DNA from: a virus
Strand: one strand, 5' to 3'
Length of the DNA stretch: 64,000 bases
Virus record (IMG/VR): IMGVR_UViG_3300031707_000001
Location: 146,733 to 210,732 of that record
The notes under the pieces were generated by a model. The model saw only the letters and a program-made list of their open reading frames with translations, was not told the DNA's origin and did not search any database. How positions within the stretch are numbered: position 1 is the first letter of the stretch; each line of letters begins with the position of its first letter. Shown piece by piece: positions 18,048-55,847 of the stretch. Position numbers and translations under genes: made by a program.

Positions 18048-20336
18048 ATGAAGAAACTGATTCATGTGTTTTTCGGTTTGTTGTTGGCGGTACTGCCTCT
18101 TGCAGCCCAAGAGATTGATAACGGAGCGCCGGTATACGTCGTTGAGATTATCAATGGCGTTCCGTATTTATCTGGCGCCGGCGGAGGTGGAGGCACCCCG
18201 GTCGATCTTACACCATATCTAAAGAAAGACGGTACAATCGCTTATACGGCCGATCAGAACGGCGGCGGATTTGGAATTACCAATCTTGGGGCATTGATAC
18301 CGTTTGGAAGCAATACTGTAAACTTGGGATCGCTGCTACATCCATGGGGAAGCATATATGCAAGCGGGCATACCATCTATTTGGACGGCATTCCAATGCT
18401 TTCGGTATCGAACAGTCAATTAGTTGTAGCATATCCAGTAGCCTCCAGCAATGGAACAACCTACACGACAACAGTTGATCTTAGTGGTTTGTCCAATCAA
18501 GTTGCAGCCATAGAGGCTCGTACTAACGCCTGGAATACTGGATCCGCTGAAGGCAACTATGCTTCGAACTGGATCGGTACGTATGGACCAGTTTTGGCCA
18601 GCACAAGTTATGTTGATAATGCTGTGTCCGGATATGCGCCCACCTCATCGATCAATGGAGTCTCTGGGCGTGTTTCTGCAATCGAAAGCAAAACCAATGA
18701 CTGGAATACAGCTTATGGTTGGGGCAACCATGCTGTTGCAGGATACGCCGGTACAGGATCTGTGAACGCCGTTTCGGCGAGAGTTGGTACGATTGAAAGC
18801 AAAACCAATGACTGGAATGCTGTCTATTCCTGGATGCAGTCCAATTCTAATGGTTTGAGTTTTGTATTTTCTCAAACCAACTCGTGGACAGTAGGCGCCT
18901 CAGCGGGTAACTATGCATCCAATTGGATCGCAGTCTGGAGTCCAACTCTTGCCAGTACAAACTTTGTTACTGATCTTTTGACTGGCTATGCTTCGACCTC
19001 AACGGTAAATGCGGTTTCTAGTAGGGTCGGAACCATCGAGGGACAAACTAACGCTTGGAATACAGCTACAGCTTATGTAGCAGCAAAGTCGAATAACTGG
19101 GATACGGCGTATAACCATCTTTCAACCTTGTTTGCTGGATCGGGTACTACTGGCAATGTAACAAGTGCCACTGCCAATACCAACCAATACCTTCGTGGCG
19201 ACGGTACCTGGCAGACTGTTGCAGCCTCAGGGGCTGGCGATGTTTTCAAGGGTAGTAACAATACCTACTCTGCCGGAACAACTCAGTCCATGCCATATGC
19301 GATTATCAATAACGGATTGGAAGTGTATGGGAACACAATTCATACAAATTGTGGAGTTAGTTTGGGCTCTACAGATACAACCAAGGCCAAATTTTATGTC
19401 AATGGCGAGAGCGGAGCATATACAAACAAGCCTCTTGTCTGGTTCAATAGGAGTGCAGCGGCTACAGGCCCTATCTTGCAGTGGGGAACCAATGGTGTCC
19501 TTCTTGGGAGTATTGATGTGAATGGAAGCGTCTCTGTTCCATCAATAGGTATCTCAAACAATCTTACACTCGGTGGGGTTACAGTGAGTTCCTTCTCGAC
19601 GAACACTCCGATCTTTGCGGATGGCTCCCAGCCATTCAACGCCACTATGAATGCTGGAACTTTCGGAGTAACGAATCTTGGCACATTGCTTCCATTTGGC
19701 AGTAATACCTGTGATCTTGGAAGTGCCGCTCTTCCGTGGAGAAATGCGTATTACGTTTCGCATACGATCTATATGGGCGGGTGGCCTATTTCTGTTGACG
19801 ATGGCACCGGAAAACTCCTTGTACCGGGAGTTCAGTATTCTGCTCCACAATACACTATAAAGTCTGTGGCCGCTTCTGATATGATGCTTCGTGGTGCCGC
19901 TACTGATCCTGCATGGGATGGGCTCAAGGTTCGTATGACCTTCTCTGGGACGAATCTGAACGGGGTGAGTTTCATTTGCGATCTTCCGCAGTACAGTCCC
20001 GAAACCGATATAGTTCCGTTGATCTTGTGGGAAGGAAATGATGTGAATGTTTCCAATGTAATCTGGCAGATGGATTACATCTGGCGCAATATAGGTGATA
20101 TTTCTACCTATGGAGATTGGACTACGCTTGCTGTGACTAATGTCAATCCTGCTTTGAAATGGCAATCTAAGGTATCCCGTTTTCCGACGGTTTCGGGAGC
20201 AGGGAAGAATAAGAATTCTGTCATTCAAATCAGACTGCAACGCCGTGGTGACTTGGACGATAACAACGATACTGCGAGTCTTCTTTTCTTCGGGCTTAGG
20301 TATGCAATCCAAGCCACAGGTGAGGATGCACAATAA
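18048..20336 (+). CDS. Exported tail-fibre-like protein with internal repeats
   Basis: ATG 18048 has AAGGAGAC upstream. The 762-residue product starts with a signal peptide (MKKLIHVFFGLLLAVLPLAAQ) and a glycine-rich linker, then fibre-like sequence. Phage-fibre repeats of the W-N-T-A-Y-G-W-G-N-H-A type occur three times (SKTNDWNTAYGWGNHAVAGY near 220). Modules of the pattern GNYASNWI...LAST.(Y/F)V occur twice. A pair of ITNLGALIPFGSNT-like modules lies near 75-120 and 540-585. The C-terminal 150 residues form a separate domain. Fibre repeats are expected in tail proteins; the N-terminal Sec signal is not. Modules are shared with the fibre at 24991. Its stop overlaps the next start (TAATG). 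Confidence 0.75.
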   Translation: MKKLIHVFFGLLLAVLPLAAQEIDNGAPVYVVEIINGVPYLSGAGGGGGTPVDLTPYLKKDGTIAYTADQNGGGFGITNLGALIPFGSNTVNLGSLLHPWGSIYASGHTIYLDGIPMLSVSNSQLVVAYPVASSNGTTYTTTVDLSGLSNQVAAIEARTNAWNTGSAEGNYASNWIGTYGPVLASTSYVDNAVSGYAPTSSINGVSGRVSAIESKTNDWNTAYGWGNHAVAGYAGTGSVNAVSARVGTIESKTNDWNAVYSWMQSNSNGLSFVFSQTNSWTVGASAGNYASNWIAVWSPTLASTNFVTDLLTGYASTSTVNAVSSRVGTIEGQTNAWNTATAYVAAKSNNWDTAYNHLSTLFAGSGTTGNVTSATANTNQYLRGDGTWQTVAASGAGDVFKGSNNTYSAGTTQSMPYAIINNGLEVYGNTIHTNCGVSLGSTDTTKAKFYVNGESGAYTNKPLVWFNRSAAATGPILQWGTNGVLLGSIDVNGSVSVPSIGISNNLTLGGVTVSSFSTNTPIFADGSQPFNATMNAGTFGVTNLGTLLPFGSNTCDLGSAALPWRNAYYVSHTIYMGGWPISVDDGTGKLLVPGVQYSAPQYTIKSVAASDMMLRGAATDPAWDGLKVRMTFSGTNLNGVSFICDLPQYSPETDIVPLILWEGNDVNVSNVIWQMDYIWRNIGDISTYGDWTTLAVTNVNPALKWQSKVSRFPTVSGAGKNKNSVIQIRLQRRGDLDDNNDTASLLFFGLRYAIQATGEDAQ
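18519..19075 (+). repeat. Tandem fibre repeats inside the 18048 gene
   Basis: Related units recur in frame. An exact 24-base direct repeat occurs at 18684-18707 and 18795-18818 (encoding ESKTNDWN), with a diverged third copy near 19035. GNYASNWI modules start near 18552 and 18907. The pattern suggests growth by unequal recombination. Confidence 0.7.
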
Positions 20337-23300
20337 TGAGATTTCTAACTTCTGTTGTGATGCTCCTTGGGCTATCCCTGTGTGCGTCAGCGGTTGATTA
20401 CACATGGGACGGTGGCAATACTGCTGGTTATCAGTGGACCGCTCCTACCAACTGGAATCTGGACGCTGGTGCTCCCACTACTACGGCAGACAGGGCAATT
20501 TTTAACACTACAGGAACCACTAAGAATCCTACCGTTGATGTAAATATTGCTTTGGATGAATTTGTAGTTGGTGGAACTACGGGTTGGACGTGGTATCGGA
20601 TAGGTGATATTACAAGTTTGGATATGCTTACCTACGGAAGCAGTGGAAGTTCCACAATGAATCCCGCTATCACCGGGAAACGTCTTCTTGTAACTAACGG
20701 TATTCTCACTTTGAATGCTTCCAACAACTTTTCTGATACCGTTACGTTTCTGGCTGGTTCTGTTGTATTAGGTACATCAGGTCAGATTGGAACAAATACT
20801 CCAATTCATATGGACGGATTTAGTGTATTGACGCTGAATTCTAGTAATAACTGGTATTCTTCTCAAACTACTACAGTAGATTCTGTCATTGGCGGAACGG
20901 GCACGATAGAGTTGAAGTATAATGGAGCACCCATTCCTGTCTCAACAAATTCGTCTGGTGTTGTATCTGTTAATCAGGTCTCGTATAGCTATCCTCTTGA
21001 TCTTGCATCAATTGGTATGATGTATCTCGGTTCCACAAATTTAGGAACCAATACTGCAACCAGTCTTGGAGTGGGTTCCGATGGAAACTATAGGATAGGC
21101 GCAGGTGGTGGAACAATAGCATTTGATTCTGCGGGTAGTGATCTAGGCGTGTTTACAGGAGCATGTAATCTTGTTGTTGGAAGAAACGGTGGTGGAGTTA
21201 AGTATACAGGAACAGCCGTGCTGTCCGATTCCAATACCTTCTCTGGAACGATAATTGTCAATCGGGGAAGCACTCTAACAGGGTTGGCAATGACCAACAA
21301 TAGTGGAGGTAGTCCCTTTGGAGCCACTAATGGAGTAGTCACGCTCAATTCGGGGGTTCTTAAATTGTCTCGTGGGTCGGCTACTACTATCAGACAACCT
21401 GTTGTTAAAGGAGCCATGAATCTTACTGGAGGTTCTACTGTTTATCTGGATGGAAATCATGCCACGGCAAATGTTCAGATCACTTTCGATTCAATTACGA
21501 AAGACCCCATATATGATTCTGCTCTGACAATTCAATATGTCAGTGCTCTTGGAACAAAGGAGAGATTTTTTGTCAATACTGGGGATTCGTATATCACAAA
21601 CGATGCTCAGGGCATGATAAACGCTATGTATGTTGGGCTACAGGGAACTACCCTTTATTATCCTCTTACCAGAAGTGGAGCATCTTCTCCTTACGAACTA
21701 TTGACAACAAACTATACTTATACGACAGGGGCCGCTAGTCCATTCTCTAATTCTATACCTACAAGTATTGTTTTGGTGTCTAATGCTGGAGGTTATAGTC
21801 CAGAACTTATTTACGGCCAAACGATCACGAATTGGGCAACAGCTTTTGCTTGGAATGGTCATTGGAACTCGTCTGCTGGTTCAACTATAGTAATTCAAAG
21901 TGGTTTATTGATATACGAATATTCAGGTGGTCCTAGCTTCCGGTCCAACTTGGATTTTTCACTTGCATCTCAGGGTAGAATAGTTACGATGTCTGGTGGA
22001 ACCCTTAATGCACTTGGGAATATTACTTCTCCATATCTTGTAAAATCAGGACCGGGAGGACTTAGTCTGGGTTCGGCAGCTCCGGGACATACGGGGATCA
22101 ATGGAAAGCTATTAGTTTCTGAAGGTCTTGTGGAATTTGATCAGATTGGAGGAGCCGATTTCTTTTCAAACATACCTAATGCAACCAATCTAATTTTAAC
22201 CGGCGGAAGTATAGCTTGTACTGCGGGAAGATGTAGTTTCCAAACAAACATTACTGTCATAATAGGTCCAACCGGAGGAACTATCACATCTGGTGACTAT
22301 ATGTCATTTTATGGAAAGGTTACTGGTCCCGGTTTGATGTGTTGGAATGGACTTGCCGGTAAAGAGTTAAGATTTAGGGGTGTGGGTAACGATTGGTCTG
22401 GTGGTTTGTATGCTAGTTTAGGGATTGTCACTGTTTATGATGGAAGTAGTTTAGGAAGTGGTCCTATAAGAATGGCTGCTGGAACTACACTTAATGTCAG
22501 AACCAATCTGGATATTTCTTCTCTTCGAGGCAGGGGTGCTGTAGTGATTGGAAATGATGTGGCTACTGGAACTAAATATCTGACCGTCGGAAGCGGAAAC
22601 ACGGACGATAACTTTCCGGGTGTCATAAGCGATCAAGCATCTACTAGAAATGGATCGTTGATTAAAACGGGAACAGGGACTATGACATTATGGGGACCGA
22701 ATACCTTTACTGGCGGAACAACAATCAATGGGGGAATTCTGGCTGTTACAGGATTCTCCTTGCATGATACGGGTACGGTAACTGTTGCTGGTGGAACTTT
22801 GAGTATGATTGATAGTGAGACTGTTGGGAATGTAACTTTGAATTCTGGTTCAATTACTGGAAATAGTACATTAACTACTGGAAATTTATATCTCAATCAA
22901 GGGACAGTAGATTCTATTCTCTCTACCGCATCTAACTTCGTGAAGAACACTTCGGGAACTGTTACGCTGAACAAAGCGAATACATTTTCCGGGTCGGCAA
23001 TCATCACAAACGGATTGTTGCTCGTCCAAGGAAGCATTGGTGCAGGCACAACACTTACAAACTATATGGGCACACTTGGCGGGACTGGGACTGTGTATCG
23101 TCATGTTGAAATGATGCCGGGAAGCTATCTTACACCCGGAGCTTCGATTGGAACGATTACTGTTAGCAATTTGAACTTTGAAGTGGGCAGCACTGTGGAC
23201 TTTGAATTGGCGACAACGAATGCAAGTGACTTTGTTCAAGTCAATGGATTGCTGGGGTTGGGTGGCAATATTCGAGTTGTGCCGTCAACGGGATTCGGAT

Positions 23301-23506
23301 ATGGAGTATATCCGCTCTTTGGATATACAACGATCACAACGAATCAAGCACCGAGGATTATCACGCCTGCCGGGTATGCAGGAACTTTGAGCACTGACGA
23401 TTCCGCCAAGAAGGTATATTTGACAATAGGTTCTGACGCTCTTCGACCTGTCAAGTCGGGAACGTCTTTACTTTTGAAATCGGGTAAGATATTGTTGAGT
23501 AAGTAG
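20336..23506 (+). CDS. Giant secreted adhesin with autotransporter-associated beta-strand repeats
   Basis: The 1056-residue product has a signal peptide (MRFLTSVVMLLGLSLCASA). The next segment, of the Y-T-W-D-G-G ... W ... N-W type, opens many secreted Verrucomicrobia proteins. At least three regions match autotransporter-associated beta-strand repeats (PATR): GSLIKTGTGTMTLWGPNTF with TGGTTINGGILAV near 775-805, KNTSGTVTLNKANTFSG near 865-880, and LSDSNTFSGTIIVNRG near 300-315. The whole chain is Gly/Thr/Ser/Asn-rich as in a right-handed beta-helix. No C-terminal beta-barrel translocator or PEP-CTERM anchor is seen; it ends in KSGKILLSK. The start overlaps the upstream stop by one base. It is probably host-derived or shared with host adhesins. 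Confidence 0.75.
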   Translation: MRFLTSVVMLLGLSLCASAVDYTWDGGNTAGYQWTAPTNWNLDAGAPTTTADRAIFNTTGTTKNPTVDVNIALDEFVVGGTTGWTWYRIGDITSLDMLTYGSSGSSTMNPAITGKRLLVTNGILTLNASNNFSDTVTFLAGSVVLGTSGQIGTNTPIHMDGFSVLTLNSSNNWYSSQTTTVDSVIGGTGTIELKYNGAPIPVSTNSSGVVSVNQVSYSYPLDLASIGMMYLGSTNLGTNTATSLGVGSDGNYRIGAGGGTIAFDSAGSDLGVFTGACNLVVGRNGGGVKYTGTAVLSDSNTFSGTIIVNRGSTLTGLAMTNNSGGSPFGATNGVVTLNSGVLKLSRGSATTIRQPVVKGAMNLTGGSTVYLDGNHATANVQITFDSITKDPIYDSALTIQYVSALGTKERFFVNTGDSYITNDAQGMINAMYVGLQGTTLYYPLTRSGASSPYELLTTNYTYTTGAASPFSNSIPTSIVLVSNAGGYSPELIYGQTITNWATAFAWNGHWNSSAGSTIVIQSGLLIYEYSGGPSFRSNLDFSLASQGRIVTMSGGTLNALGNITSPYLVKSGPGGLSLGSAAPGHTGINGKLLVSEGLVEFDQIGGADFFSNIPNATNLILTGGSIACTAGRCSFQTNITVIIGPTGGTITSGDYMSFYGKVTGPGLMCWNGLAGKELRFRGVGNDWSGGLYASLGIVTVYDGSSLGSGPIRMAAGTTLNVRTNLDISSLRGRGAVVIGNDVATGTKYLTVGSGNTDDNFPGVISDQASTRNGSLIKTGTGTMTLWGPNTFTGGTTINGGILAVTGFSLHDTGTVTVAGGTLSMIDSETVGNVTLNSGSITGNSTLTTGNLYLNQGTVDSILSTASNFVKNTSGTVTLNKANTFSGSAIITNGLLLVQGSIGAGTTLTNYMGTLGGTGTVYRHVEMMPGSYLTPGASIGTITVSNLNFEVGSTVDFELATTNASDFVQVNGLLGLGGNIRVVPSTGFGYGVYPLFGYTTITTNQAPRIITPAGYAGTLSTDDSAKKVYLTIGSDALRPVKSGTSLLLKSGKILLSK

Positions 23507-50607: not shown

Positions 50608-51404
50608 AACGGTTACTTACAACAAGATGCTACTTCGGATTGGGTGATTGGGTTATGATGCAATCAGCGCTGAAGGCTGTAAATCGTTGCTATCCTGATT
50701 TGGCTATTGATTTGGACGTTACAAAAGTACCGTTGTGGTTTCAACTCCTGGTGCTTAATTTTGACGCCAGGGTTGCCTTTGTACGGAATCCAAATCCTGC
50801 GGCCTATGACTATGTTAGTGGGCACGTTATATATGCCGGACCACGTCCGATTGTGGATGACAGACCCATTCATCTTATTGATAGTATGGTACGCAATATA
50901 TCAAAGAAGACTGGGTTACTGTTACAGTGGAGCGGTGAATTAGCCAGCTACACCGGATATACGGAACAGCATGGTGAGTTGCCCAAACATTATGTGCTTA
51001 TGTCTAATAAAGGTAATCCAGACAATCCACGAAAAGATTGGGCAAAGGAAAACTTTGAAGACCTGGCAAACAAATTGGCACCAGATATACCGATCGTTCA
51101 AATTGGTCGGCGGGGTGATACCAAAATACAAGCAGCAACTTATTGTGGGTTTGACCTTTCTCCTATGGGTATACAGGCCTTCATAAATGGTGCAACCGTT
51201 GTGGTTTCAATTGAGAATGGTATTAGCCATTGGGCCGGTCATTTAGGTAAAAATACAGTAACTCTATACTTAGACAAAGGCGGATGTTTGCCAGCATATA
51301 CTGGCTACCCACACCAGGTAGGACTTACAGATGAAGTTATAAGCGTAGGTGCTGTACACCATCAGGTATTGAGGTTACTGGACAAGGAAATAACTGTCAT
51401 ATGA
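50604..51404 (+). CDS. Glycosyltransferase family 9-like protein
   Basis: ATG 50604 (GCAGGAG upstream, ATGA overlap with the previous gene) gives a 266-residue product; ATG 50550 is less likely. The N-terminus RCYFGLGDWVMMQSALKAV is the G-x-G-D-x-h-x-x-x-x-A-h opening of ADP-heptose:LPS transferase-like GT-B folds. VVSIENGISHWAGHLGKNTVTLY near 210-232 supplies the donor-binding E-N-G-x-x-H-x-A-x-x-x-G segment. It lies unexpectedly between primase and polymerase genes. It resembles in family, but not closely in sequence, the GT at 7614. Confidence 0.65.
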   Translation: MKRLLTTRCYFGLGDWVMMQSALKAVNRCYPDLAIDLDVTKVPLWFQLLVLNFDARVAFVRNPNPAAYDYVSGHVIYAGPRPIVDDRPIHLIDSMVRNISKKTGLLLQWSGELASYTGYTEQHGELPKHYVLMSNKGNPDNPRKDWAKENFEDLANKLAPDIPIVQIGRRGDTKIQAATYCGFDLSPMGIQAFINGATVVVSIENGISHWAGHLGKNTVTLYLDKGGCLPAYTGYPHQVGLTDEVISVGAVHHQVLRLLDKEITVI

Positions 51405-53581
51405 GTGAAGAAACAGAAATTACGTGGCTTGAGCACACGATGGAAGTCGCCGGGGTAAAGTGGATAAAAGGCTATGGACCACTCCCTGCTGACATCATGT
51501 TCGTCGGAGAACGTCCAGGCGATGACGAGCAGCGCTATGGTGCTGTATTTACCGGACCGTCCGGGAAACTGCTATTTACGCTGCTGCGTACCGTGGGGTT
51601 GGATGAAAGCAAATGCTACTTCACCAACGCTGTTAAGTACATGCCTCGAAACAAGAAGGCACTCAATGCTGGCGATACCAAAAAGTGCCAGCCCATTCTC
51701 CACGAGGAGATTAAGCGGGGCCAACCCAAGATTATCGTTTGCCTGGGCGCTGTGGCATTGAAAGCTGTAATGGGTAAGAACTTCTTGCTTAGCGACTACC
51801 GAGGAGCTGTGGTGGATCATCCAACTATGGCAGGTACTCGTGTATTTTGTACCTATAACCCCGCATATGTACTGCGCAATCCTGCGGCCGAAGAAACCTT
51901 CAAACGTGACTTCGAGTCGTTGGCCAGGGTGTACGGCGGCGGTACGATTGCATCGGATGTGACTACATATGAGGTAATCCAGACCGTTGAACATTTGAGA
52001 GCTTTCAAGGATTTTCTCTTTGCTACTTACGATAAGCCAATCATCTCGCTAGACTGCGAATGGCACGGAGCGACTTGGATGTCCAAGCACAAGTACATAC
52101 GTACTGTGCAATTAGGATTCAAGATTGGCGCCGCCGTGATTGTCAAGTTTACAGGTGAGAATGGCGTTCAAGCTATGGATTTTCCAGAAGAAGCCTGGAA
52201 GGTTCTTAAGGAGATTCTGGAAGATCCACGGGTTGCCTTGATTGGACAGAACATCATTTCGGACGGTCAATGGCTTTTGCAATATGATATTGATATTCGT
52301 CCACGTGTAGCCTATGACACCATGCTTGCAGAGTATCTGCTTAATGAGTCTGGGCCTTTTGGTTTGGAAGAGCTGACACTCAAGTATACAAACATGGGAC
52401 GTTATGACTTGGATGTGATGCGTTGGAAGAAGGATCATAAGGTAGAATGTGCTGATGGATTTGGTCCTATTCCTGATGAACTATTGCTTCCATATGGCGC
52501 CAAGGATGTAGACGCTCCATTGCGTATTGTTCAAAAGCAAATGCCATTGCTTGAGAAATTCATGGTGCCTAGAGGCGAGTATCCCAGTTTGTGGGATACT
52601 ACGATGCAGACACAGGAAACACTATACGAAATCGAAATGACCGGCATGGCAGTTGATCCGGAACGCTTGAGCATACTGACTAAGGCCTATAACGAAAAAT
52701 TGATCGGGCTGGAAAGTCAAATCAGAACAGCAGCATTGCAATATGGCATGGAAGACTTCAATTACAATTCTACACGCCAGGTTTGCGATCTACTGTTTGC
52801 TCGTTTGCACCTAATGCCAATCAAAACGACGAAAGGTAAGAAGTGGGACGAATTTGCACCCTACGAAACGTCAGGGGTAGATAATCGCACACCTTCCACG
52901 GATCACAATACTCTGGAAATTCTCCAGGACAAGCATCCGCTTGTGAAGATGTTGCTGAACCTTCGACGTGTGGGTACGGTCGTCAAATACTTCTTGCGTG
53001 AAGATGACGAAAGCGAAAGCGAAGAAGCAGAAGAGAACCAGAACAAAACCGGTGGCGGTATAGCTTCGAAGATTTGGACAGATGGAAGGCTCCATCCCCA
53101 CTTTTCCCAGCTGTCCGAAACCGGACGGTTCAAAACTAGCAAACCGAACTGTCAGAACTGGCCGAAGAAGGCTGAAGGCTACATGTCGGAGATCTTTGGC
53201 GGCAAGGATAAACTTCCACCACTGATTCGAACTATTGTAGTGCCTACGACCGGCATGGTGATGATGGAAGCGGACTTCGAACAGGCAGAATTGTTCGTGT
53301 TGGCAGCATTATCTCATGACAAAAACATGATGGGTGCACTGACAACTCCGGGCAAGGATTTGCATGATTTGACAGCAATCAACGCCTTCAACCTGCAGGT
53401 GCTTATACCTGACGGCAAGGTAGCCGACGAGGCTTTTATGTTGGACCTGGCAAAGCGTGACAAAGAAGCCTTCGAAGTCTATCGAAAAACGTTGGTCTAT
53501 GTGGATCAGCGTGGCAAGCGCATGACTCGTGCAGAATTCAAGGATACTATTCGGGTGAGTGCAAAAAACCTGAATTTCGGT
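51401..53581 (+). CDS. polA: Family A DNA polymerase with UDG-like domain, exon 1
   Basis: Exon 1 codes 727 residues; the spliced protein would be 911. Residues about 20-190 form a uracil-DNA glycosylase-like domain (MFVGERPGDDEQ, TGPSGKLLFTLL, IIVCLGAVAL, TYNPAYVLRNP). A 3'-5' exonuclease follows with ISLDCEWHG (Exo I), GQNIISDGQWL (Exo II) and YGAKDVDAPL (Exo III), all residues intact. The polymerase domain has motif A as MEADFEQAELFVLAAL, and the exon stops within motif B after RVSAKNLNFG. A stop codon follows at once, but the continuation IPYGRGARDI is encoded 727 bases downstream, so the gene is interrupted, not truncated. The start overlaps the previous gene by ATGA. Confidence 0.93.
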
Positions 53582-54308
53582 TAAAAGGGATTGCCATAGT
53601 TAGGTGATTGTGCTAAATTGTATCTATGAAAAAGATAATCAAATATCTAATTTGTGTGGACTGCCAAAAACAGTTCCGTTTCATAGGTAGAACTAAGGCA
53701 TTGCGCTGTGTATCGTGTCGTCGTAAGTATGCGAGTAAATATCAAATGCTTTGGCGACTAGCTCGGAATCCATCCATACAAATGGGTGTTGGTAGCGGGG
53801 GACATCAATGGCGTAAGGACAATCACATGTGGAAAGGTGGAAAACGTCCGAAATATATTGGTAACTACCGAAGCCGATGCTTTAGGCGTTGGCAACGTCG
53901 ATGTGTTATTTGTGGGAGTACTCGTGGAATCCACGTGCATCATGCTGATGGCGATACCGCTAATTTGCATGTATGTAATTTGATTCCTGTGTGTACACGA
54001 CACCACAAACAATTGCATCGATCCAAAGGCAGACTTACCAAAACGGAACGTTTAACACTGCTCTTCAAATTATGGCCTAAAGGCCGAAGTAAAATTGCGG
54101 AACTAAGCGGGAACCCTGAAATGGGAATCCGAACCGAAGGCTGTAATGTTTATGCAGTACAGTCAGGGGCAACGACTAGGGGTGAGGAAACAATAATCCC
54201 CCAAGAGGCCGCAACATCATGAAGTTACATGGTGAAAAGATAGTCTGGGCTGCAACGAAAAACAAGTTGCAGAATTGTTGGATAAAAAGCCAACAAGTTA
54301 ACAAACCG
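53582..54308 (+). ncRNA. Group I intron 1 in polA
   Basis: The intron begins after the T of the codon GGT and ends in G at 54308, the usual group I boundaries; joining the exons restores NFG-IPYG. The exon end TTCGGT (53576-53581) pairs with an internal guide GCCGAA (54083-54088) through the required U-G pair. Core elements follow in order: P AATTGCGG (54093-54100), Q AATCCGAACC (54126-54135), R GGCAACGACTAGG (54168-54180) and S AAGATAGTCT (54237-54246), with P7 formed by GACTA and TAGTC. The 727-base intron carries an HNH gene in the P1 loop that reads on through P, Q and R. Confidence 0.88.
53626..54222 (+). CDS. HNH homing endonuclease within polA intron 1
   Basis: The 198-residue product has a zinc ribbon (CVDCQKQF ... 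CVSCRRK), a basic linker, and an HNH core RCVICGSTRGIHVHHADGD with NLHVCNLIPVCTRHHKQLH. It holds the double histidine, the asparagine and the distal histidine of phage HNH endonucleases. The frame continues about 45 codons past the HNH domain, through the intron's guide sequence and P, Q and R elements (from 54083), so its C-terminal tail is ribozyme sequence read as protein. No clear ribosome site precedes ATG 53626, which may limit translation and protect folding. It would cut intronless alleles to spread the intron. Confidence 0.82.
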   Translation: MKKIIKYLICVDCQKQFRFIGRTKALRCVSCRRKYASKYQMLWRLARNPSIQMGVGSGGHQWRKDNHMWKGGKRPKYIGNYRSRCFRRWQRRCVICGSTRGIHVHHADGDTANLHVCNLIPVCTRHHKQLHRSKGRLTKTERLTLLFKLWPKGRSKIAELSGNPEMGIRTEGCNVYAVQSGATTRGEETIIPQEAATS

Positions 54309-54587
54309 ATCCCGTATGGAAGAGGCGCACGAGATATTGCAAGACAGGTAAAGGGTGAAACGGGCTCAGCCACGCCACTTGATCAGCTAGAAGCCGAAAT
54401 CGAAACGATGACAACAACCTGGAAGGAAGTATCCTACCCCGATGCCTGGAAATATATGTGTGAATGTGGCAAAGCGGTAACGGATCCGGGTTACCTTGTG
54501 ACTCCGTGGGGCCGTATGCGAAGGTTCCCGACGATCAAGGACGAAGACCTCTTGAATGGAATGCAGCGAGAGGCACAGAACTTCCCT
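54309..54587 (+). CDS. polA: DNA polymerase, exon 2
   Basis: Ninety-three codons run from IPYGRGARDIARQV (second half of motif B, the O-helix region of family A polymerases) to NGMQREAQNFP. This last stretch is the conserved E-R-x-A-x-N-x-P-I-Q-G/S-T-A segment, broken after the proline. The frame is open upstream into intron 1, giving a false ATG at 54219, and hits a stop immediately after NFP. Both ends coincide with group I splice sites, and the length is divisible by three, as required. Confidence 0.9.
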
Positions 54588-55571
54588 TAAACAGATGAAT
54601 AGGGGAAATAAAACGGGGTGAATTCAGGGAAAGCCGGATAACAGAATATCTGCTATTGACATTAAATACGCAATAAGGTATTGTAGCAGATATTGGTAAT
54701 CCTGAGCCTAGCCAGTGAAGTGATTTGCTGGAAGGTGCAACGACTAGCACTCGAGTCTTGTAGAAGACAGTAATAGTGCCACGAGCGCCCTGACTCAGAA
54801 TCGAAACTGAGTATGATATAGTCTGGACTGATACAACTGTTAGGTGTGTATGAAATTGTGTAAAGACTGCGGCAAAGAACCTTGTTTGAAAATGCTGATA
54901 AAGCATAACTCCGAGTATTATCCTCGGTGTCAGGCCTGTGATAGAAAATATAACCGTGAACGTGCTAGAAAACTTAGATTGAAAGCGCAGAAAAAAGAGT
55001 TACTTCAAAATTCCAAACTTGAGAAAACAGGCTGGAAACGCTGTAGTAATTGCTTTAAGAAAAAGACGCTATTTGAGTTTTCGACACGCTACGGTAAGCG
55101 AGGAGGTAAACTGCATAAGATTTGTGATACTTGTCTTTCCCGGTTGTTAGCTAGCAACCGAAAAGATATGGATCAGTTTACCCCCAAATTTTGGCGTTCG
55201 AGGGCCTATGCTTGTAACTCAACATATCGGTATCATCAAAAACGATTGAAACAACGAGTAGTTCCGCTTGCTGATTTAGCGTATGTCATAAAACCTCAAC
55301 AGTTAGTTGAGTTATACAAAAAGCAAGATGGTAAGTGCTGCTATTGCTACGTAACGTTGACCACACGTAATCTTTCTTGTGATCACGCTATTGCAATCGT
55401 TAATCAAGGTTCACATCACATTAGAAATATTCGACTAACGTGTCGGGATTGCAATAATCTTAAATGGACACGTAACGAAAACGAATTTGTCGAATTTTTA
55501 AGAGTCTACGCACAACGAATACTCGAAGTATCAGAATTGCGGGATAAAGAACCTGCAAGATAACACGAACG
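54588..55571 (+). ncRNA. Group I intron 2 in polA
   Basis: The 984-base intron starts after T of the codon CCT and ends in G at 55571; splicing joins NFP to IQSTVADTCMIAM. Exon end TTCCCT (54582-54587) pairs with guide GGGGAA (54602-54607) across a 14-base loop, including the U-G pair. The core is textbook: P AATTCAGGGAAAGCC (54621-54635), Q AATCCTGAGCC (54698-54708), R GTGCAACGACTAGCAC (54735-54750) and S GATATAGTCTGG (54815-54826). All of it lies upstream of the HNH gene, which is therefore in a peripheral (P9-side) position, unlike in intron 1. Confidence 0.92.
54850..55563 (+). CDS. HNH homing endonuclease within polA intron 2
   Basis: From ATG 54850 (GTG 54844 is alternative) the product is 237 residues. 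It has two N-terminal zinc-ribbon modules (CKDCGKEPC ... CQACDRKY; CSNCFKKK ... CDTCLSRL), a basic helical middle, and a C-terminal HNH core GKCCYCYVTLTTRNLSCDHA with NIRLTCRDCNNLKW. The core retains the Asp-His and the N-N of this HNH subgroup. It is unrelated in layout to the endonuclease of intron 1, indicating independent acquisition. It ends eight bases before the 3' splice site. Confidence 0.85.
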   Translation: MKLCKDCGKEPCLKMLIKHNSEYYPRCQACDRKYNRERARKLRLKAQKKELLQNSKLEKTGWKRCSNCFKKKTLFEFSTRYGKRGGKLHKICDTCLSRLLASNRKDMDQFTPKFWRSRAYACNSTYRYHQKRLKQRVVPLADLAYVIKPQQLVELYKKQDGKCCYCYVTLTTRNLSCDHAIAIVNQGSHHIRNIRLTCRDCNNLKWTRNENEFVEFLRVYAQRILEVSELRDKEPAR

Positions 55572-55847
55572 ATTCAAAGTACAGTCGCTGATACCTGCAT
55601 GATAGCCATGATACGCATGCGACAGTACCGGACGAAGTATGGGCTCCACTTCCGCATCATCAATCAGATTCACGATGCAGTAATGGTGGAAACCCCCGAA
55701 AACGAAATCGAAGCTACGAAAACGATGTTTAAGGATACAATGGCCAACATAAAAATACCAGTGACTAACAGTGAACCATTGATATTGGGAATAGATATCT
55801 CGATACTGGATCGCTGGGGTCAGAAAAGAAGTAAGAAAGAGGACTAG
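55572..55847 (+). CDS. polA: DNA polymerase, exon 3
   Basis: Ninety-one residues complete the polymerase. IQSTVADTCMIAMIRMRQ is the segment after the conserved N-F-P. IINQIHDAVMVETP is motif C, with the catalytic Asp in H-D-A where H-D-E is canonical. The final helix region ends in LDRWGQKRSKKED. The alanine in place of the motif C glutamate is a tolerated variation in some phage enzymes. The first in-frame ATG (55599) is internal, not a true start. Confidence 0.9.
   Translation: MQSTVADTCMIAMIRMRQYRTKYGLHFRIINQIHDAVMVETPENEIEATKTMFKDTMANIKIPVTNSEPLILGIDISILDRWGQKRSKKED

Follow-up and report, generated by a model that had tools for sequence, protein, structure and literature searches.

Two predicted group I introns with HNH endonuclease genes in polA of an uncultured large phage

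The split polA gene and its predicted product

The window, i.e., the whole stretch of 64,000 nucleotides analysed here, forms the end of a 210,732-base IMG/VR virus record. The neighbours of its DNA polymerase gene, polA, include genes for a terminase (phrog_675), a DnaB-like helicase, a RecA/UvsX-like protein, an SbcC-like protein and a DNA ligase, a set that fits a large tailed phage, and no relative was found when prokaryote genome contigs were scanned with the polymerase. Elsewhere in the window (20336-23503), a 1056-aa protein has a Pfam match to the passenger-associated-transport (PATR) repeat, which is unusual for a phage. The polA reading frame (51401-55847, plus strand) is split by two introns and has the architecture UDG, 3'-5' exonuclease and family A polymerase:

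51401-53581, plus strand: polA exon 1, 727 codons; UDG, 3'-5' exonuclease and polymerase to motif B, ending ...SAKNLNFG
53576-53581, plus strand: intron 1 P1 5' strand, UUCGGU, the final exon bases
53582-54308, plus strand: intron 1, predicted group I (IA-like), 727 nt, inserted between NFG and IPYG in motif B (residues 727/728; site 1)
53626-54222, plus strand: predicted HNH homing endonuclease ORF of intron 1, 198 codons from ATG
54083-54088, plus strand: intron 1 internal guide sequence, GCCGAA (P1 3' strand), 501 nt past the 5' splice site
54095-54214, plus strand: intron 1 P3, UUGCGG (54095-54100) with CCGCAA (54209-54214)
54174-54245, plus strand: intron 1 P7, GACUA (54174-54178) with UAGUC (54241-54245)
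54215-54234, plus strand: intron 1 P8, CAUCAUG with CAUGGUG
54275-54296, plus strand: intron 1 3'-terminal hairpin, named P9.2 here, UUGUUGG-auaaaaag-CCAACAA
54309-54587, plus strand: polA exon 2, 279 nt, 93 codons, IPYGRG...AQNFP
54578-54844, plus strand: Rfam RF00028 match to intron 2, 47.5 bits, full model 1-253
54588-55571, plus strand: intron 2, predicted group I (IA2-like), 984 nt, inserted between NFP and IQST (residues 820/821; site 2)
54602-54607, plus strand: intron 2 internal guide sequence, GGGGAA, pairing with UUCCCU (54582-54587)
54742-54823, plus strand: intron 2 P7, GACUA (54742-54746) with UAGUC (54819-54823)
54844-55563, plus strand: predicted HNH/endonuclease VII-like ORF of intron 2, 239 codons from GTG, or 237 from ATG at 54850
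55537-55558, plus strand: intron 2 3'-terminal hairpin, within the HNH frame, UUGCGGG-auaaagaa-CCUGCAA
55572-55847, plus strand: polA exon 3, IQST..., motif C QIHDAV, stop

Joining the three exons gave 911 residues without a stop codon, which bears out the coordinates, bases and product length proposed in the initial annotation of this DNA. The predicted joined exon sequences are AATTTCGGT/ATCCCGTATGG and AACTTCCCT/ATTCAAAGTAC, with junctions at 53581/54309 and 54587/55572. Pfam finds UDG (E 6e-29), DNA_pol_A_exo1 (E 3e-20) and DNA_pol_A (E 2e-55) in this one chain. Alignment to other family A polymerases, which the initial annotation had proposed as a check, was gapless against three intron-free relatives from uncultured phages (L002, L006 and L012), with no indel at either junction. 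The UDG domain occupies the N-terminus of PolA (window 51401-51950), and its motif appears degenerate in L002 and L003 (VDSWPGDEIKRTNRPL).

An in-frame UAA is the first codon of each intron, the TAA at 53582 being the codon directly after exon 1. Such stops, together with the precedent of split phage genes whose products function as separate chains (PMC2988022), would agree with non-splicing, degenerate insertions that leave polA as separate polypeptides that assemble, like nrdA of phage Aeh1. We consider this very improbable: across the junctions the frame runs on unbroken through motif B, all core helices of both introns are intact and covary (see below), the first in-frame ATG of exon 3 (55599) lies downstream of the IQST block, and exon 2 alone would give about 93 residues from a 5' end without a start codon.

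Ribozyme features and endonuclease ORFs of the two introns

In both introns the 5' exon ends in U, the final intron base is G, and a 6-bp P1 places a U.G pair at the splice site; the splice sites (exon end T, intron end G) and the P1 pairs UUCGGU/GCCGAA and UUCCCU/GGGGAA with terminal U.G, as read in the initial annotation, are thus present in the sequence. P1 with U.G at the cut was found in nine introns, the window's two and seven from relatives, at different sites. An exon C-to-U change in one relative, L070 (UUCCUU), is matched by a G-to-A change in its guide (GAGGAA), i.e., a compensating change in P1.

The Rfam model RF00028, the search suggested at the outset, matched intron 2 (E 1.9e-10) at 2.5 bits under the curated gathering score of 50, which is a stringency filter and no defining trait of group I introns. 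Intron 1 was not matched by RF00028 and alone gave chance hits only. Being invisible to Rfam, it was therefore aligned, starting at the guide sequence, with the introns that two relatives, L014 and L003, carry at this site, and the helices P3, P4, P5, P6a, P7, P8, P9 and the 3' hairpin were named. In this family 19 of 42 pairs changed on both sides (shuffled mean 7.3; 0 of 500 shuffles), and P7 reads GACUA/UAGUC in the window, GCGUA/UACGC in L014 and GCAUA/UAUGC in L003. The site-2 family (window, L011, L014 and L070) gave 16 of 36 pairs changed on both sides (0 of 500 shuffles), with P7 as GACUA/UAGUC in the window versus GACCA/UGGUC in L011 and L070. The fraction of paired cells was 97.5% for the intron 1 family, versus 30-36% in slid structures, and 98.5% for the site-2 introns, the slid controls of both families lying at about 30-40%; because the helices were named from the alignments themselves, the slid control is somewhat biased toward them, and the two-sided changes are the stronger evidence. 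Both introns thus contain the group I core P3-P8, with P3 and P7 varying in compensating pairs.

A covariance model built from the L014 and L003 introns only, i.e., leaving the window out, found intron 1 at 144 bits (E 1.6e-49) and, more weakly, the Rfam-confirmed group I introns in the relative L007 (32.6 bits) and in L003. The earlier proposal of two group I introns agrees with the covariation, with the covariance models and with the sites occupied or empty in relatives, and the presence of two complete group I introns in polA, in motif B and the next conserved block, is supported on these sequence grounds, far beyond what chance would give. Subgroup IA2 is distinguished by P7.1 and P7.2 between P7 and P3 (PMC3428280). 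Intron 2 has both, paired and covarying; in intron 1 the same region holds, by eye and outside the pair counts, only one G-rich/C-rich hairpin. When RF00028 and the intron 1 model were run over the whole viral record, no further intron was found in the phage contig.

A similar end hairpin, with a loop of about AUAAARAG, lies just before the 3' splice site of introns at both sites, in the window and in relatives. The likeness of these hairpins (54275-54296 and 55537-55558) hints that the two intron families may share descent.

The HNH ORF of intron 1 starts in the P1 loop, shortly past the 5' splice site, as do those of L014_I1 and L003_IB, and its 3' end overlaps the guide, P3, P4-P7 and the 5' strand of P8. 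As the HNH frame runs through P3-P8 in both the window and L014, a single stretch serves as coding sequence and as ribozyme at once. The C-terminus of the intron 1 protein (RSKIAELSGNPEMGIRTEG...EETIIPQ; window 54083-54222) is encoded by the ribozyme core, and the L014 HNH protein has the same frame and similar residues across the core. The ORF of intron 2 lies downstream of the core, after P7, and stops 8 nt short of the 3' splice site. Both ORFs are full length with conserved HNH residues. PHROGs matched the intron 1 protein to phrog_8048 (E 4e-11) and the intron 2 protein to phrog_1035 (E 3.5e-18); PF01844 was found in the intron 2 protein at 21.5 bits (cut-off 21.4), and the intron 1 protein was recognised by PHROGs only. 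Searches with the single proteins found few homologues and those with alignments more; cultured phages held no close homologue of either protein, and the distant relatives L105, L071, L077 and L004 had no PolA nearby. Sigma-70-like promoters were also sought where the P1-loop HNH genes begin, and hits were no more frequent than chance.

The two sites in uncultured and cultured phages

Close polymerase relatives from other uncultured phages were gathered by alignment-based searches and an exon map was drawn for each; all spliced products align gapless, and the frames across short exons were checked. Both sites are empty in L002 (= L010), L006 and L012. L014 (PolA 34% identical) has introns exactly at both, of 1097 nt with an HNH ORF and 236 nt without. 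In L011 and L008, contigs from two samples, site 2 is filled and another intron lies inside the Leu724 codon (10 nt upstream of site 1 in L011). L009 also has the Leu724 intron, within which its contig ends. In L007 the Leu724 intron has no long ORF left and is followed 17 nt later by a second one, which interrupts the Tyr730 codon. In L003 two introns lie 12 nt apart, at KN/V and NFG/I, and site 2 is without an intron. L070 (PolA only 27% identical) has an intron with a homologous HNH ORF, seen at site 2 only. The introns of L014, L011/L008, L003 and L070 thus share sites, homologous ribozyme cores and homologous HNH proteins with the window (identity about 35% at site 1 and 39-45% at site 2, L011/L008 being at 45%), and differ in that L014 intron 2 is ORF-less, L011 intron 1 is shifted and site 2 of L003 is empty.

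This distribution bears on an assembly artefact, in which unrelated pieces would have been joined into polA in one contig. The window phage is known from one contig only; nevertheless, contigs of other metagenomes carry introns at the same sites (L008 and L011 at site 2; L014; L070), and misassembly would not yield splice-site rules or a P1 that pairs with the exon. We regard an artefact as extremely improbable.

A homologue of the intron 2 HNH gene was found free-standing in L067 and L069 (PolA 24%), directly 3' of an uninterrupted polA encoding UDG-PolA (L069:3420-4145). A neighbour of this kind would be required by the scheme of collaborative homing (PMC2988022).

To place the sites among cultured phages, 14 cultured Herelleviridae polA genes were mapped onto window residues. 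With E. coli F762/Y766 and N845/Q849, which we take to be the motif anchors, the window sites correspond to E. coli G763/L764 and P847/M848. In the literature, polA introns are placed at E. coli 674 (SPO1, SP82, Bastille, Pf-WMP3), 676 (phiL7) and 881 (PhiI, W31) (PMC3428280). By mapping, SPO1 and Goe26 have introns at window 582/583, SBSphiJ4, Grass and MDA2 at about 731/732, and BSP12 and BvP near 729, the last two positions being taken from BLAST ends with an accuracy of about a codon. Site 820/821 was in none of the 14 genes. The SPO1 gene 31 intron and its relatives (I-HmuI, I-HmuII, I-BasI, I-PfoP3I) are, like those of the window, group IA introns with an HNH gene in a phage family A polymerase; however, the SPO1 intron lies at window 582/583 (E. 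coli 674) rather than 727/728 or 820/821 (PMC3428280), and a Pfam scan of both window ORFs found none of the NUMOD DNA-binding repeats of the I-HmuI type. The SPO1 parallel drawn in the initial annotation therefore stands in kind only.

The third polA intron of Bacillus phage SIOphi (TFG/IAYG) and the polA intron of Lactobacillus phage 521B (SFG/IVYG) lie exactly at the site of intron 1, 727/728, but at 326 and 359 nt leave no room for an HNH gene like those of the window. They were not found by the covariance model of the window intron family and therefore probably represent an independent invasion.

Proposed intron mobility and repeated invasion of motif B

From the anatomy of the locus, its splice sites, the covarying ribozyme fold, the intact HNH frames and the empty and occupied sites in relatives, we infer splicing in the cell, endonuclease activity and homing. 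We hold with high confidence that two mobile, self-splicing group I introns with HNH genes invaded polA, that splicing would restore the 911-residue enzyme and that the HNH proteins would be expected to drive homing. The introns would have inserted in the codons of the dNTP-binding O helix (motif B) and of the next conserved block. After transcription, each guide sequence would pair with the last exon bases, forming P1 with U.G at the cut, and each intron would excise itself with joining of the exons into one UDG-exonuclease-polymerase; translation of an unspliced message would end after 727 or 820 codons, at a UAA. Each HNH enzyme is assumed, from its location, to target intron-free polA near its own insertion site, so that in a mixed infection it would nick or cut the intron-free allele there, and repair would copy the intron in. 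Conserved targets and lethal imprecise loss are the usual argument for insertion at catalytic codons (PMC2988022); here, this position may keep targets conserved across distant phages (e.g., L070) and make imprecise loss lethal. Not all predicted phage introns splice themselves in vitro (5 of 9 genes tested; PMC11878797).

The ORFs could instead be decaying passengers of introns now inherited vertically without homing. Consistent with a cycle of gain and loss, L007_I1 has lost its long ORF and L014_I2, L007_I2 and L003_IA carry none; against this, both window ORFs are full length and keep their HNH residues. We judge this unlikely, while giving it some weight, and favour introns that still home. 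Relatives and window together form a natural series of sites that are empty, filled by an ORF-less intron, HNH-bearing or with the HNH lost, and of an HNH gene free-standing beside polA, which could be used to test the gain and loss of homing introns at catalytic codons.

The initial annotation had called two introns in one polA striking. This is not exceptional: Bastillevirinae polA genes (phiNIT1, BSP12, Moonbeam) have two or three group I introns (PMC11878797), and multiple introns were mapped here in SIOphi, BSP12 and SBSphiJ4. Those phages are Herelleviridae, however, and site 2 is unused in the 14 cultured genes mapped. The same work (PMC11878797) describes a small exon for rNDPL of phiNIT1 and, for SIOphi, the skipping of an exon; neither intron doubling nor small exons are therefore new in principle. 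The window polA is a further example of a known intron type. It extends intron-bearing polA to an uncultured large-phage clade and adds the intron 2 site (E. coli P847/M848), absent from the published sites found and from the cultured genes mapped.

The more interesting part is the pattern at motif B, where the same few codons are repeatedly invaded in relatives. Across phages, five insertion points fall within 24 nt, and two relatives have very short exons between motif B introns:

L003, 7452-7463: 12-nt exon, GTAAACTTCGGT = VNFG, between two motif B introns (L003:7200-8640)
L007, 9195-9211: 17-nt exon between two motif B introns (L007:8217-9485)

The first motif B intron of L003 is ORF-less and matches RF00028 at 39.2 bits; the second of L007 is an ORF-less group I intron that passes the gathering score (85.4 bits). 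It is likely, in our view, that group I introns have a multi-site hotspot in motif B of family A polymerases from phages, with exons of 12 and 17 nt between introns in two phages. For comparison with 12 nt, no stated length of the phiNIT1 rNDPL small exon was found in the literature (PMC11878797). The 12-nt exon has to fill two roles, offering the downstream intron its P1 target and the upstream intron its 3' exon. Skipping it would delete four active-site residues in frame, and splicing would therefore have to be accurate or ordered.
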